A stretch of DNA of 64,000 bases, taken from positions 62,001-126,000 of the forward strand of contig NZ_PJJO01000055.1 in NCBI RefSeq assembly GCF_002929535.1. Reading direction: 5' to 3'. The stretch is from Cryobacterium sp. Y11 (GTDB lineage: Bacteria > Actinomycetota > Actinomycetes > Actinomycetales > Microbacteriaceae). The notes beneath the pieces were generated by a model. That model was not told the DNA's origin. It worked only from the letters and a program-made list of their open reading frames with translations, and did not search any database. A program made the position numbers and the translations under genes. Positions 7,347 to 46,752 of this stretch are shown piece after piece. How positions within the stretch are numbered: the first letter of the stretch is position 1; each line of letters starts with the position of its first letter.

Positions 7347-7364
7347 GGTGGTGACCCTCTCGTG

Positions 7365-7449
7365 TGCGTAACTCCTGCAATTCTGTCGAATTTGGCCTCA
7401 AAACTCCTATTTCTGACGAATTCTGAACAAATTGCAGGAATTGTGCGCC
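7365..7449. repeat. Diverged copy of the inverted-end repeat (family A)
   Basis: The left end TAACTCCTGCAATT (7369-7382) is matched by the inverted right end AATTGCAGGAATTG (7430-7443), about 85 bp apart in total, with the flanking TGCG/GCGC also inverted. The same ends occur in three 96-bp elements around the nuclease gene at 43869-44774. The interior here is AT-rich and unrelated to those copies but contains its own weaker inverted pair. It lies between birA and accD. Confidence 0.8.
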
Positions 7450-7550
7450 GGTAGTTGGGGTGGCTGAGGGGCTGGGGAGGGCTGAGGAGACCAGTGTTGC
7501 GGGGCAAAGTTGTGAAACTTCGGCACGGGGAAGCGCCCGGGGCGTGCCGG

Positions 7551-24665: not shown

Positions 24666-25568
24666 TTACGGACGCCACCCGCGCGACCGCAACGCCACAT
24701 TGACGGCATCGCGTACCCATTCTTTTGACGACCCCTTCCGCACGGTAATCACCAGCCATCCGGCCTCGCGCACATCGTGCAAGCGCTCAGCGTCGCGGTT
24801 GTACTGTGCGTCGTCGATGCGGTGCTGCTCACCGTCATATTCCACAAGTACCTTGTAGCGAAGATAGACAAGGTCACCGCGAGCCCGCCGTTTGCCCGCC
24901 GGCAGTGGAATATACACATTTGTTTCGGGCTTGGGAAACCCGCAGACCAACAGAAACAGACGCAGGAACGTTTCCCGCCTCGACTCGACACGAGGCCGAA
25001 TCAATGCTGCGGCCGCGCGCAGCCGCAGGGAACCACGATGCCCCGCATACTGCACAACCTGCGCGGCAATTTCGGAAGCCGTCGCGACCCCGAGCTCCGC
25101 TCGCAACAGGTGGTCTCCCGCCGCCACCAGATCATTTAATTCCAGAACGGATGCCAGCTGGCACCATGCCACAATGGGCTCCAACACCGACAGCCCCGCC
25201 ACACTACGCACGCCAGGTCGATCCGCGACCCGGTGACCGACAACGCCCACTGCTCGCAGCGAGCGGTCCGGATCGAGCACCGTGACGTGAATCAGCGGAT
25301 CCACCTCGAGATCTGCCGGCAGGGGCATGCCGTGAAGCCGGGCAGCCGTGGCGTGGCTGAAGAAGGCGCCAGCGGGCATCCGTTGTTGAATGGCTCGGCA
25401 GCGATCATTCAGATCGACAACGCTGCCCGCCGCAACGCAGACACCCCAAAACGGATGCTCGACGTCGCGCGACCGCAGGCGCTTGGCCGAGACGCCAGCT
25501 GCCAGGGCCTGTGCGAAAGTGAATGCCCCGTGCTCGAAGCCGGGAGGGAGAGGAGTTTGGATATGCAT
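24666..25568 (-). CDS. AbiEi-like/DUF559 protein with Vsr-like nuclease domain (nuclease 1)
   Basis: The 300-residue protein has an N-terminal segment like the AbiEi-type winged helix ('FTFAQALAAGVSAKRLRSRD' then 'HPFWGVCVAA'), a middle alpha/beta part, and a C-terminal DUF559 domain. Its likely PD-(D/E)xK acids are in 'RARGDLVYLRYKVLVEYDGE', followed by 'YNRDAERLHDVREAGWLVI', the layout of Vsr-like endonucleases. DNA cleavage is inferred, not shown. It lies between add and deoA, downstream of an unusual array of short repeats (25668-25924). Length and architecture match the protein at 43869-44774, but the sequences are only distantly similar. Confidence 0.75.
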   Translation of the reverse strand: MHIQTPLPPGFEHGAFTFAQALAAGVSAKRLRSRDVEHPFWGVCVAAGSVVDLNDRCRAIQQRMPAGAFFSHATAARLHGMPLPADLEVDPLIHVTVLDPDRSLRAVGVVGHRVADRPGVRSVAGLSVLEPIVAWCQLASVLELNDLVAAGDHLLRAELGVATASEIAAQVVQYAGHRGSLRLRAAAALIRPRVESRRETFLRLFLLVCGFPKPETNVYIPLPAGKRRARGDLVYLRYKVLVEYDGEQHRIDDAQYNRDAERLHDVREAGWLVITVRKGSSKEWVRDAVNVALRSRGWRP

Positions 25569-41830: not shown

Positions 41831-42685
41831 ATGTCTGCAGCCAAACCCCTTCGCATCGCCAGTATCAACACGAACGGGGTACGAGCCGCGTACCGCAAGG
41901 GAATGGGCGACTGGCTCACGGCCCGTGACGTTGATATTCTGGCAATTCAAGAGGTGCGCGCCTCCACCGAAGACCTCGAAGGGCTGCTCGGTCCGGACTG
42001 GAATATTCTGCACGATGCTGCCACTGCCAAGGGCCGTGCCGGAGTTGCTCTCGCGAGCCGAGCGGGAGCATCCATTCATCGCGTTGCCCTGGGGCCTGAG
42101 GAATTCGACAGCGCCGGTCGCTGGCTGGAGGCCGACTATGAGGTCAACGGCAGGGTCATCACCGTGGTGAGTACCTATGTACACTCCGGCGAAACCGATA
42201 CTCCCAAACAGGTCGAGAAGTACAAGTTTCTGGACGCCATGATCGCCCGGCTGCCCGAGCTGACGACGCACAGCCCGCTGGCGCTCGTGCTGGGCGATTT
42301 GAATGTTGGCCATCGCACACTCGACATTAAGAATTGGCGCGGCAACAAGAAGCACGCCGGTTTTTTGCCGGAGGAGCGCGCGTACTTCGACCTGATTCTC
42401 GGAAGCGAAGGTGACCCGAACTATAACGCGGGCGCGGGACTGGGCTGGATCGACGTTGGCCGTAAGTGGGCCGGTGAGGTTGACGGGCCGTACACCTGGT
42501 GGTCGCAGCGCGGCCAGGCGTTTGACACCGACACCGGGTGGCGGCTGGATTACCATCTGGCCAGCCCGATGCTGGCGGCATCCGTTGTCAATTATGTGGT
42601 TGACCGGGCCGCAGCGTATGACCAGCGCTGGAGCGACCACTCCGCCGTCGTTGTTGACTATGACCTTTCTGGAGCAACATTATGA
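41831..42685 (+). CDS. xth: Exodeoxyribonuclease III / AP endonuclease
   Basis: The 284-residue protein is an exonuclease-endonuclease-phosphatase fold enzyme that nicks DNA at abasic sites and trims 3' ends. Motifs in order: '[10 protein letters not shown]', '[10 protein letters not shown]' (metal Glu), 'VSTYVHSG', '[17 protein letters not shown]', 'GWIDVGR', 'DYHLASP' and the final '[12 protein letters not shown]'. The stop overlaps the trpS ATG by 4 bp. Confidence 0.94.
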
Positions 42686-43686
42686 CCAAACCCCGCCTGT
42701 ATTCGGGCATGCAGCCCTCGGCCGAGTCCCTGCAGATCGGCAACTACATTGGCGCGCTGCTGAATTGGAAGTCGCTGCAGCAGACGCACGACGCGTTTTT
42801 CTCCATCGTCGACCTACACGCGATCACCGTCGCGCAGGAGCCTTTAAAGTTGCGGGAGAACACCCGCGGAACGGCGGCCCAGTACATTGCGGCTGGGATC
42901 GATCCCTCGGCGTCGACGTTGTACGTGCAGTCGCACGTTGCGGCGCACGCGCAGCTGGCCTGGGTGCTCAACACCATCACCGGGTTCGGTGAGGCCAGTC
43001 GCATGACCCAGTTCAAGGACAAGTCTTCACGGCACGGCGCCGACGCCACGAGCGTGGGACTGTTTGCCTACCCGACGCTGATGGCCGCCGACATTCTGCT
43101 CTACCAGACCTCTGTCGTGCCGGTTGGGGAAGATCAGCGTCAGCACGTTGAACTCACCCGCGATCTCGCGCTGCGCTTCAACTCGCGATTCGGCGACACG
43201 TTTACGATTCCCGAGGTGGCAATCGTGAAGGACACCGCGAAGATCTACGACCTGCAAAATCCCACGTCGAAAATGTCGAAGTCGGCCGAGTCGCATGCCG
43301 GGGTCATCTGGCTGCTCGATGAGCCGGGGGTCACCAAGAAGAAGATCATGCGGGCGGTGACGGATGCCGATGGCGGCGTGGTCTTCGACCGCGAGAACAA
43401 GCCGGGCGTGGCGAACCTGCTCACGATCTACTCCGTGCTGGCTTCGCGCACGATCGAGTCCCTCGAGAATGAGTACGCCGGGCGCGGCTACGGTGACCTG
43501 AAGAAGGGGCTGGTCGAGGTGGTTCTTGGCACCTTCGACCCGATTCGTGAGCGCGTCACCGAGCTGCTTGGCGACCCGGCCGAGCTCGACCGGGTGCTCG
43601 CCTCCAACGCCGCTCGGGCTGCTGACGTCGCGGATGAGACCCTGGCCACCGTCTACGACCGCGTCGGCTTCCTGCCGCGTCGCTGA
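42682..43686 (+). CDS. trpS: Tryptophanyl-tRNA synthetase
   Basis: A class I synthetase of 334 residues. The HIGH-type motif is in '[20 protein letters not shown]' and the KMSKS loop is intact in '[12 protein letters not shown]'; '[19 protein letters not shown]' followed by '[15 protein letters not shown]' is the Trp/ATP site. It is coupled to the exonuclease gene by an ATGA overlap. A 96-bp repeat begins 46 bp after its stop. Confidence 0.96.
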
Positions 43687-43731
43687 TCGCTGCCCGGGTA
43701 TTCGTCTGCATCCCACCCGCCGATCCGCCCC

Positions 43732-43827
43732 TGCGCATAACTCCTGCAATTTCTCGCGCCGCCGGTTCAGAGCCGCGCGATCACGGGCATCCGCTGCCGA
43801 TGACTCAGAAATTGCAGGAGTTGTGCA
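43732..43827. repeat. 96-bp element with inverted ends, copy 1 (family A)
   Basis: The left end TGCGCATAACTCCTGCAA (43732-43749) and the right end TTGCAGGAGTTGTGCA (43812-43827) are inverted; with flanking bases the arms match over about 23 bp with two differences. The interior shares GGGCATCCG with the other copies. It lies between trpS and nuclease 2, with a right-end fragment just beyond (43841-43853). Confidence 0.9.
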
Positions 43828-43868
43828 CACCCGGGTGGACACAAGAGTTGTGCCGCCGGTCGATGTCG

Positions 43869-44774
43869 TCAGGCGAAGGAAGACGCGCGATCGCTGCCGT
43901 TACGGCAGATGTCGACGAGCTCGCGAACGGCCTGAATCACGCCCTCCGGGTCGAACATGATGTCCTGGTACAGAACACGGAGCGTCAGGTACCGGCGAGC
44001 GGCCAACAGACGATCCCTGGTGCGGTCACGAACGTGTTCTGACCATTCCTTGTGATGCAGCCGGTTGTCGGCTTCCAACACGACACAACCCTCGACCAGC
44101 ACATCGACCCGGCCAACGCCAGGAATGGCGACCTGGATCTCGCAGCGGAAGCCGGCTTGTCGCAACAGGTCGCGCAAGACGGTCTCCTGCCCCGCATCAA
44201 CCCGAGCATCGATTCGCGTGCGCAGGTCCCGATATTTCGCGGGAACCTGCGCGAAAATCGTGGCGAGGTCGGTCGGGAAGATCTTGCGCTCGTGCAGGGC
44301 GGTATCAAGCGCTGCGAGGGCGAAACGCGGTTCCTGACACTGGATGATCTGGGAGAGGGCATCCCGCGCGCCGACACAATATCTGGTGCCGTCCTCGGCG
44401 TCAATGAGGGGCCACCAGTGCAACTCGACGCCATCTCGGTGGGCCAGCGCGAGCGGAACGCGCCGGTCCTTCGGGCTGCGCAACCGCGACGCTTCTCGCG
44501 ACAGGTGGAGGTGCGTGAACTGCGCGTCGAAGGCGAAGAAGCCAATCTCTGCGGCGGCAGAGACGCAGGCCAGTCGACCACCGATGCGCACCGCCTCAAG
44601 GGTATGACGGTCAGTAGCCGGCGCCGCGTAGTGGTCGCGGCGTACCCGCACGAGGACGTTGTCCCGCACGGCGTTGGTGATATCCCGCCCGGTCATGCCG
44701 CTGGCAAGAAGCTCAGCGCGACTGAGGATGCGGCGCGGGCCGTCGACTGCGTTCAGGGTGGGGGAGGAAGCCAT
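43869..44774 (-). CDS. AbiEi-like/DUF559 protein with Vsr-like nuclease domain (nuclease 2)
   Basis: The 301-residue protein starts with an AbiEi-type antitoxin winged helix: 'ILSRAELLASGMTGRDITNA' then 'VLVRVRRDHYAAP'. A middle domain follows, then a DUF559 domain with likely metal acids in 'GVGRVDVLVEGCVVLEADNR' and following 'LHH', as in Vsr-like endonucleases. ATG 44774 gives the same length as nuclease 1; the frame extends to a TTG at 44834. No toxin gene adjoins, so this is not an AbiE operon. Three 96-bp repeats bracket it. Nuclease activity is inferred. Confidence 0.77.
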   Translation of the reverse strand: MASSPTLNAVDGPRRILSRAELLASGMTGRDITNAVRDNVLVRVRRDHYAAPATDRHTLEAVRIGGRLACVSAAAEIGFFAFDAQFTHLHLSREASRLRSPKDRRVPLALAHRDGVELHWWPLIDAEDGTRYCVGARDALSQIIQCQEPRFALAALDTALHERKIFPTDLATIFAQVPAKYRDLRTRIDARVDAGQETVLRDLLRQAGFRCEIQVAIPGVGRVDVLVEGCVVLEADNRLHHKEWSEHVRDRTRDRLLAARRYLTLRVLYQDIMFDPEGVIQAVRELVDICRNGSDRASSFA

Positions 44775-44914
44775 GACCTGATGTTGGCTACTGCCGGGCC
44801 GCGACCGAGAGTCGAAGTTCCAATCTGTGGACAATCGGCGCGACGACCACCTTGTGGAGGAGCAGCTGAGCCCGCTCCGGCACCGCTACACAGTCGCCGA
44901 GGCGACGCCACCCC

Positions 44915-45010
44915 GCGCATAACTCCTGCAAACCGTGGGTGGCTCGGTATAGCGGCCCGGAATCATGGGAATCCGTCGCCTCGGCCACAGAAATTGCAGG
45001 AGTTATGCGC
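44915..45010. repeat. 96-bp element with inverted ends, copy 2 (family A)
   Basis: GCGCATAACTCCTGCAA (44915-44931) is repeated perfectly in inverted form at 44994-45010. The interior contains AGCGGCCCGGAA and GGGAATCCG, also found in copy 3. A right-end fragment follows (45026-45040). It lies about 140 bp upstream of the nuclease 2 start. Confidence 0.92.
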
Positions 45011-45096
45011 TGTGGGGTACCCGCGGCAGGAATTCTGCGCCGTGGGCATCCGGATTCGGGTCGACCGCGGTGCAGTAGCCGAAGTCGGGCCGCCAT

Positions 45097-45192
45097 GCGC
45101 ATAACTCCTGCACATCGTAGCCAACGACAAGGAGCGGCCCGGAACTACGGGCATCCGGCGCCGCAACCACAGAAATTGCAGGAGTTATGCGC
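45097..45192. repeat. 96-bp element with inverted ends, copy 3 (family A)
   Basis: GCGCATAACTCCTGCA (45097-45112) and its exact inverted copy (45177-45192) bound an interior with GAGCGGCCCGGAA and GGGCATCCGGCGCCG. Its length equals that of copies 1 and 2. It ends 46 bp before the glpK stop. Confidence 0.92.
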
Positions 45193-45237
45193 AGTGGCGC
45201 ATGCTGGAGAGGAGCCAGCTGGTGGTGGGGGAAGGGG

Positions 45238-46752
45238 CTAGCGCACGTCGTCGTCTACCCAGTCGAGGGTCTTCGTGACAGCCTTCTTCCAGTTGCGCAG
45301 GAGACGAGCAGCTTCCTTTGGGTCCATGGCTGGCTCCCAGCGGGCGTCTTCCTGCCAGTTGGAGCGCAGGTCGTCCAGGTCGCTCCAGAAGCCCACAGCA
45401 AGGCCGGCCGCGTAGGCGGCGCCGAGCGCGGTGGTCTCGGCGACGACCGGGCGCACGACGGGCACGCCAATGATGTCGGCCTGGAACTGCATGAGCAGGT
45501 CGTTGACCGTGGCACCACCGTCGACCTTGAGCTCGGTCAGCGGCACCCCGGAGTCCGCGTTGACCGCGTCGAGTACCTCCCGGGTCTGATAGGCGATGGC
45601 CTCGAGCGCCGCCCGCGCGATGTGGCCCTTGTTCACGTAGCGGGTCAGTCCCACGAGCGCTCCGCGCGCGTCCGAGCGCCAGTACGGCGCGAACAGGCCC
45701 GAGAACGCCGGCACGAAGTAGGCCCCACCATTGTCGGTAACCGTCTTGGCGAGGTCTTCAATCTCGGAGGCGTTCTTGATGATGCCGAGCTGGTCCCGCA
45801 TCCACTGCACGAGCGAGCCGGTGACCGCAATCGATCCCTCAAGCGCGTAGTGCACCGGGGCATCGCCGAGCTTGTAGCCCACGGTGGTGAGCAGGCCGTT
45901 CTTTGAGTGGACGATCTCGGTGCCGGTATTGAAAATCAAAAAGTTACCGGTGCCGTAGGTGTTCTTCGCCTCGCCCTGGCCAAAGGCGGCCTGGCCGAAG
46001 GTCGCGGCCTGCTGGTCGCCGAGAATGCCGGATATCGGTACCTCGCGCAGCAGGCTGTGCCCGCTCGCGACACCATAGACCTCGGACGACGACTTGATCT
46101 CGGGCAACATCGACTTGGGCACGTCGAAGATGCGCAGGATCTCGTCGTCCCACTGCAGGGTTTCGAGGTCCATGAACATGGTGCGGCTCGCGTTAGTGAC
46201 GTCGGTAGCGTGCACGCCGCCCTCGATGCCGCCAGTCAGGTTCCACAGTACCCAGGAGTCGGTGGTGCCGAACAGGAGATCGCCGGCATCCGCTTTCTCG
46301 CGTGCTCCCTCGACGTTTTCGAGGATCCAGACGATCTTGGTGCCCGAGAAGTAGGTGGCCAGTGGCAGTCCGACCTTCGACTTGAATCGTTCGACACCGC
46401 CGTCCGCGGCGAGGCGGTCGACGATGGGCTGAGTGCGGGTGTCCTGCCAGACGATGGCGTTGTAGACGGGCACGCCGGTGTTCTTATCCCAGACCACAGC
46501 GGTTTCTCGCTGGTTGGTGATGCCGACGGCTTCAATGTCGTGGCGGGTGATGTTGGCCTTGGACAGCGCCTGGCCGATGGCCTCACGGGTGTTATCCCAG
46601 ATTTCTTTCGGGTCATGCTCGACCCAGCCGGCCTGCGGCAGAATCTGTTCGTGCTCCAGCTGACCAGTCGAAATGATCGACCCGGTCTTGTCAAAGATGA
46701 TCGCTCGGGAGCTCGTGGTTCCCTGGTCGATGGCGAGAACGTATTTGGCCAT
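45238..46752 (-). CDS. glpK: Glycerol kinase
   Basis: GlpK phosphorylates glycerol to glycerol-3-phosphate. The 504-residue FGGY kinase has '[15 protein letters not shown]', the signature region '[12 protein letters not shown]' and '[20 protein letters not shown]'. AAGGAGTT precedes the ATG. It follows the glycerol channel gene by 59 bp on the same strand, so uptake and phosphorylation are probably co-expressed. Confidence 0.97.

Follow-up and report, generated by a model that had tools for sequence, protein, structure and literature searches.

What ties a gene for a nuclease-like protein to the short, inverted-ended repeats on both of its sides? In the window, by which we mean the whole 64-kb stretch of Cryobacterium sp. 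Y11 DNA that was analysed, such a gene sits between trpS and glpK, inside a bracket of three repeat elements (Table 1). An earlier note, made without database searches, had described these three 96-bp copies and proposed that the protein may mobilise, maintain or bind them.

Three elements bracket the gene

The coordinates and inverted arms of the three copies were confirmed. The sequence ATAACTCCTGCA occurs seven times in the window at up to one mismatch, compared to 0.07 occurrences expected from shuffles. The three elements account for six of these matches, their arms, and the seventh belongs to an arm of a fourth, shorter copy that the earlier note had not listed; relatives of this fourth site were seen in five other loci (L140, L099, L114, L107 and L081). 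Two further end fragments had been described beside the elements. The one at 45026-45040 is indeed an arm with three mismatches, but 7.6 such matches are expected per window by chance, and at 43841-43853 no arm match was found at up to three mismatches; the fragments are at most remnants. The interior blocks said to be common to the copies turned out to be shared pairwise, AGCGGCCCGGAA by copies 2 and 3 only and GGGCATCCG by copies 1 and 3 only. Both blocks overlap or adjoin the central dyad, a feature of the wider family.

The window's genome (61 contigs, 4.03 Mb) has eight copies with exact 10-bp arms on both sides, three of them inside the window, and copies also lie on other contigs. It also holds one AATTCAGGA-type pair (G000:C49:346808-346891), possibly the trace of another arm lineage.

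Table 1. Position of the elements, the partner gene and its neighbours in the window.
Feature	Position	Strand	Remarks
Element 1	43732..43827	no strand	96 bp; 84-bp span, AACTCCTGCA..TGCAGGAGTT; between trpS 3' end and nuclease-gene 3' end
Element 2	44915..45010	no strand	96 bp; 84-bp span; upstream of nuclease gene
Element 3	45097..45192	no strand	96 bp; 84-bp span; between element 2 and glpK 3' end
Element 1 central dyad (core), degenerate	43773..43788	no strand	read off the sequence; family core from wider comparison
Element 2 central dyad (core), CCCGGAATCATGGG	44955..44970	no strand	read off the sequence; family core from wider comparison
Element 3 central dyad (core), CCCGGAACTACGGG	45137..45152	no strand	read off the sequence; family core from wider comparison
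Partner gene, weakly AbiEi-like N-terminus and C-terminal Vsr-like (MTES_1575/DUF559) nuclease	43869..44834	-	
Fourth copy, degenerate, shorter class	7363..7450	no strand	74-bp arm span; arms slightly decayed
Possible decayed arm between elements 2 and 3	45025..45040	no strand	3 mismatches; alone not above chance
trpS, neighbour of partner gene	42682..43686	+	tRNA-synt_1b match
glpK, neighbour of partner gene	45238..46752	-	FGGY kinase match

The partner protein

Read from a TTG, the partner gene encodes 321 amino acids; the ATG at codon 21 may be its true start. Its description in the earlier note as AbiEi-like/DUF559 holds in that the matches are present (Pfam: MTES_1575, E = 1.4e-5; DUF559, 5e-4; AbiEi_4, 2e-3), but each lies below its curated cut-off. 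MTES_1575 and DUF559 match the C-terminal half and the weak AbiEi_4 match is at the N-terminus. In the family, MTES_1575 was matched by 22 and DUF559 by 19 of 30 homologs (E = 1e-3), Pfam AbiEi_4 by 11 of 30 members, and one PADLOC AbiEi model by 18 of 30, which do not include the window protein. From the AbiEi match, the N-terminal part is taken to be a winged-helix DNA-binding domain. Six residues (E217, D244, E254, D256, H261 and D270) are invariant in all 30 aligned homologs, a pattern that fits Vsr-like nucleases of the EDxHD type. Among solved structures, the closest in sequence is an endonuclease-like protein (PDB 3hrl, E = 2.7e-7); the mobile intron protein 3r3p reached only E = 0.27.

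Homologs are common: of 199 Microbacteriaceae genomes sampled, 131 have one at E = 1e-10 or better, and a class-wide search found a homolog at E = 1e-30 in 43 of 296 genomes. A second, weak MTES_1575-like match in the window (24699-24860, or G000:C52:86699-86860; E = 0.003) is without an exact bracketing arm, and none of four weak DUF559 matches elsewhere in the window's genome has one.

Anatomy of the element

Copies from Cryobacterium and related genera have a conserved arm of approximately GCATAACTCCTGCAATTT, whose inner ten bases are exact because the search demanded exactness, and a conserved central dyad, approximately cCcCGnaa plus its mirror. The approximately 20 bases separating arm from dyad are near random. 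The arms themselves are inverted, so could pair with each other. Inside the arms, we found no excess of pairing compared to halves swapped between elements (12, 44 and 33 non-redundant copies of 73, 84 and 85 bp). The element body is not kept as a hairpin; what is conserved is the sequence of arms and central dyad, not a structure. A structured RNA or hairpin body was ruled out by this unpaired interior together with a scan of 43600-45400, which gave zero Rfam matches up to E = 0.1.

The spans between the 10-bp arms fall into classes. Among 160 distinct elements, 28 had spans of 72-75 bp and 125 had spans of 83-86 bp, the remainder being 63 bp (one), 79 bp (one), 88 bp (two) and over 120 bp (three). 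As loci were fetched with spans of approximately 60-90 bp and orthologous copies are counted separately, only the near-empty gap from 75 to 83 bp is telling in these counts. Spans of AATTCAGGA-type elements, among the rows listed, were 73-75, 84-87 and 95-97 bp, with one of 68 bp, and those of CGAAATGCAG-type elements were 79-81 bp. The classes lie approximately 11 bp apart, which suggests that the two arms are held on one face of the helix. Since the 73 and 84 classes have different cores, they could instead represent two old subtypes. Eleven single exact arms were found in 0.93 Mb of element-bearing loci, and three of these have a partner with one mismatch.

Many homologous genes are bracketed

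A homolog was counted as bracketed if the same inverted arm pair (10 bp, at most one mismatch, span 50-111 bp) was present on both sides of the gene. At a score of 9 or more, 76 of 111 homolog loci with complete flanks were bracketed, and 34 of 60 among the more distant loci; L267 and L268 had been chosen because elements were already known beside them, and without both the counts are 74 of 109 and 32 of 58. The remaining 35 of the 111 loci were unbracketed at this threshold. Six loci (L159, L193, L195, L201, L204 and L207) were omitted from the 111 for contig edges. The 60 extra loci were taken in the order of the homolog list, skipping edge or partial matches (G153, two of G099, and G130), and the last three picks were out of order: G114 and G168, both already known to be flanked, and G193.

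Bracketing was found at 6 of 1500 pseudo-gene positions in the window and the named loci. A second control, in which flanks were swapped between loci, passed in 111 of 1321 pairs, a number that may include pairs whose two flanks have the same arm type. With exact arms, 17 of 34 loci were bracketed, compared to 0 of 1020 shuffles and 0 of 578 window positions. Chance as the source of the pairing between gene and element was ruled out by these counts.

Bracketing was most complete for the class A genes of Cryobacterium, which are 65-75% identical to the window's gene and carry AACTCCTGCA arms (AACTCCTCCA in G249). All 19 of their complete-flank loci were bracketed at a score of 8 or more, and 18 at 9 or more. 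The earlier note had said that a gene commonly found with no copy nearby, together with absent binding, would refute the link; for the most part this is not what was seen. In the class-wide sample 6 of 27 loci passed: 2 of 9 from the same family and 4 of 18 from other families (L278, L279, L289 and L299). The other 14 of these 18 showed no bracketing, and some of the loci from other families have half-length matches or contig edges.

Arms follow the protein lineage

The arms differ between lineages of the gene. Class B genes, also from Cryobacterium and 51-56% identical to the window's, have TAACTCAGGA- or AATTCAGGAA-like arms. Across the 76 bracketed loci, arm similarity dropped with protein distance (Mantel rho 0.42, 0 of 1000 permutations), with a mean local arm score of 17.1 for the closest protein pairs compared to 5.5 for the farthest. 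The correlation was weak (rho 0.13) for pairs below 45% identity. Simple co-inheritance alone would yield part of this correlation.

More telling than the overall correlation are loci that keep a neighbour and have different arms. At 32 complete-flank loci a tblastn search (E = 1e-10, a level at which related kinases could be caught as well) found a trpS- and/or glpK-like neighbour; 25 of these loci are bracketed, and they come from six genera. Because the bracketed loci with such a neighbour show at least six clearly different arm types, the gene apparently stayed in place while arms and protein changed. The arms of both bracketing elements differ together with the protein. The link between gene and elements proposed in the earlier note is supported by bracketed homologs in many genera, by arms matched to lineage, by the larger numbers of exact-armed elements where the close ortholog is present and by the failure to find a RAYT.

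Dispersed copies and copy number

Exact AACTCCTGCA pairs were present in 9 of the 199 sampled genomes of the family and in 47 of 57 genomes of the genus, with at most 31 exact copies in one genome. The mean number per Cryobacterium genome was 16.2 with a class A gene (22 genomes), 3.9 with a class B gene (14 genomes) and 4.3 with neither (21 genomes), where the count misses the class B genomes' own arm type and some of the 21 genomes with neither hold weaker homologs. The difference between class A and neither class was significant before any correction for phylogeny (p = 3e-5). The earlier note had asked whether copy number tracks the gene. The median number of elements (16.5 with a class A gene compared to 3 without a class A or B gene) agrees with this, but some genomes that lack both classes retain elements, up to 15 in one case. 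Six class A orthologs contain one in-frame stop. Four of these genomes (G208, G211, G218 and G237) keep 12-27 copies, and two (G249 and G250) have none of class A type.

Two other arm types were counted in 21 genomes. Pairs of CGAAATGCAG were found in four (20 in G048, 10 in G107, three each in G190 and G076), and in each of the four a homolog is bracketed by arms of that type (L180, L176, L178 and L226). The other 17 genomes had none, including G029, whose homolog L211 has a related arm, and a reversed-pattern control gave 0 pairs in the 21 genomes. Pairs of AATTCAGGA were found in ten genomes, and in six of these a homolog is bracketed by that arm type (G168, G118, G114, G037, G175 and G197). 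In the others, no such homolog was present among the tested loci: G029 has 12 pairs, and G000, G078 and G091 have one or two each.

Not every copy sits near the gene. Only 10 of 119 stretches among the named loci contain a homolog, and 116 of 137 exact-armed elements lie in stretches without one; together with G048 and with copies on other contigs, this ruled out the idea that all copies are gene-proximal. Clustering round the gene was matched in 0 of 200000 simulations in both G168 and G037 and in 43 in G076, and G048 showed no clustering near the gene (170419 of 200000); the simulations took contigs as circular, and the four genomes were picked after their listings had been inspected.

Some local arrangements stand out. 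Dense clusters of elements occur in G168 (C1:1574065-1956944) and G029 (C12:152584-263217). The G168 cluster surrounds a partner gene near the middle of the one large contig, and an effect of the replication terminus is possible there. At L092 (2279-3572) and L112 (5890-7190), two elements lie approximately 1.2 kb apart with no homolog between them, possibly the site of a lost gene.

Turnover and empty sites

The earlier note had also called for a search for empty sites in relatives, and no clean one emerged. At one orthologous site, for which 57 genomes were searched, 30 loci were fetched and all but one, 29, yielded both flanks. Nine of these have an element, four have a spacer of 20-27 bp, and 16 are element-free with spacers of 77-240 bp. 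Of two genomes with no close gene, G193 has decayed arms at this site and G209 exact ones. In G233, G216 and G248 the arms show one or two changes. What is missing from the element-less relatives goes beyond the element itself; gain therefore looks the same as loss, and no target duplication is visible. No clean insertion or empty site was found at this orthologous site, and among the listed cases from fetched loci none had both flanks aligned to those of an element with a short gap between them. Element positions are often conserved between species. Most copies have no clear similarity in their interiors, and signs of recent duplication are accordingly rare, with just a few near-identical copies.

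Operators, composite units or another mobile family

The main rival to a system that acts on its own elements is an operator or regulon role. The AbiEi-like protein would repress its own gene through the inverted arms, and the dispersed copies would be regulon or titration sites that the protein does not move. There is precedent for this: AbiEi and Rv2827c autoregulate by binding to inverted repeats of 23 bp that lie in the promoters of their own genes (PMC7319586). The window protein has inverted repeats adjoining its gene and may resemble these in its N-terminus, where its AbiEi_4 match is weak, and AbiEi models match members of its family (11 of 30 for Pfam AbiEi_4, 18 of 30 for the PADLOC model). 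Conservation of arms and central dyad as sequence and not as structure also fits operators, and steps of approximately 11 bp in span would suit looped ones. However, the gene has a complete element on its 3' side too, some genomes show clustering of copies round it, and the spans of 73-97 bp are far above the 3- or 13-bp gaps of the AbiEi operators (PMC7319586). The AbiE system differs further in that the present gene has a fused nuclease, dispersed elements as well as elements on both sides, and, at the window locus, trpS and glpK as neighbours in place of an AbiEii-type gene. The genomic positions of the dispersed Cryobacterium copies are also awkward for operators. Compared to gaps in general, the elements were under-represented between divergent genes (12 of 114, compared to 97 of 440 gaps) and over-represented where the flanking genes converge (50 of 114, compared to 105 of 440), as judged with a crude gene caller that placed 14 more copies inside called genes and nine at edges. 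We regard operators as a serious but rather unlikely explanation.

We think it improbable that element, gene and element move together as a composite unit, with recombination between the two elements leaving a solo copy, as in solo LTRs. A few bracketing pairs do look like this, being near-identical and in direct orientation (L178, 0.96; L226, 0.91; L168 and L221, both 0.87). However, interior similarity rises above the 99% point of controls in no more than 5 of the 76 bracketing pairs, the other 71 lying within it, and direct orientation is not preferred (35 of 76). LTR-like pairs were set aside as a general pattern on the count of 5 in 76. The trpS- and/or glpK-like neighbour found at loci of several genera also speaks against such a unit.

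That the elements belong to some other mobile family, as MITEs of an absent insertion sequence or REPINs of a RAYT, and lie beside the gene by accident is very hard to sustain: elements do occur in genomes without a close gene, but bracketing at 76 of 111 loci compared to 6 of 1500 control positions (and at 4 of 18 loci from other families), arms that follow the protein lineage, and the absence of Y1_Tnp from all 20 genomes in a search that covered Y1_Tnp alone among transposases all stand against it. In that search the Y1 (PF01797) RAYT transposase was not found in any of 20 element-bearing genomes at E = 0.01, and a control set was positive in 6 of 14. A RAYT acting in trans was ruled out on this result, and the statement in the earlier note that no transposase lies behind the elements stands as far as Y1/RAYT is concerned. 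The elements share with MITEs a short, inverted-ended, non-coding form. They differ in that two complete elements bracket the gene and the spacers are random. No target duplication was seen; nor did an unsystematic look at the fetched loci reveal an autonomous copy with one arm at each end.

Comparison with known systems

The closest parallel in organisation is that of REPINs, which lie beside the RAYT gene. REPINs have two inverted arms round a diverse spacer, are dispersed and tied to one nuclease gene, and are commoner in genomes carrying the RAYT gene (PMC8049555). Here too there is an inverted arm pair round a diverse spacer, with both gene-flanking and dispersed copies, and in Cryobacterium the number of elements is higher with a class A gene (uncorrected for phylogeny). 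The analogy drawn in the earlier note is thus sound in layout, but it does not extend to the protein or the fold: the nuclease is Vsr-like, whereas that of REPIN/RAYT is a Y1 HuH enzyme, and the present elements show no hairpin constraint, have a central dyad and spacing classes, and reach at most 31 exact copies per genome.

With the DUF559/Vsr-like nucleases, which include the phage homing endonuclease I-Bth0305I, the partner protein has the nuclease family and the catalytic-type residues in common. The partner protein differs from them in its fused AbiEi-like part, and in its dispersed cognate elements, which are unreported for those nucleases in the parts of the literature consulted. Caulobacter VsrA carries DUF559 (PMC12907096).

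No description of the partnership between gene and elements, or of these repeats, was found in titles and the opening lines of abstracts of the open-access literature. With neither a Y1 nuclease nor a hairpin body found, we regard the system as new at the level of protein and element, while its organisation has a known parallel in REPIN/RAYT.

A proposed system of one protein and its elements

We prefer, with a probability of approximately 0.55, the reading that gene and elements form one system with the layout of REPIN/RAYT, built on an unrelated AbiEi-like/Vsr-like protein that would bind, cut and mobilise its elements. The N-terminal part would read both inverted arms, set at a fixed helical phase, and the central dyad may be a third contact or a site for a host factor, yielding a bridged complex. 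Inside this complex the nuclease could nick or cut. Repair or conversion of the nicked or cut elements might then follow, or their copying to new places, often close by. The copies that bracket the gene would be kept up by the same nuclease action, which would account for both of them differing together with the protein.

A bolder version of this one-system reading stands at even odds in our judgement: a new class of intragenomic repeat, in which actinobacterial AbiEi/Vsr-type nucleases drive the spread and concerted upkeep of three-site elements. The balance is equally fine on what the element would then be, namely arm, core and arm at helical phase, with arms that co-evolve with the protein and a nuclease gene that remains at a single locus. 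It could go either way, too, whether the REPIN/RAYT way of life was here invented a second time and independently, with substrates that are double-stranded and not hairpins.

What has been found looks like an undescribed partnership between a protein apparently capable of binding and cutting DNA and repeats that it may maintain or spread, in one actinobacterial family and some relatives from other families. It places a widespread but functionally uncharacterised nuclease family, with homologs in 131 of 199 sampled Microbacteriaceae genomes, in a context, and it accounts for a class of dispersed repeats for which the open-access literature, in its titles and abstract openings, offered no description. 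The 76 bracketed loci provide dozens of natural pairs of protein and arm, from which a code for DNA recognition might be read. Should the elements prove to be mobilised, a protein that is no relative of the Y1 transposases would have given rise to a partnership like that of REPINs.
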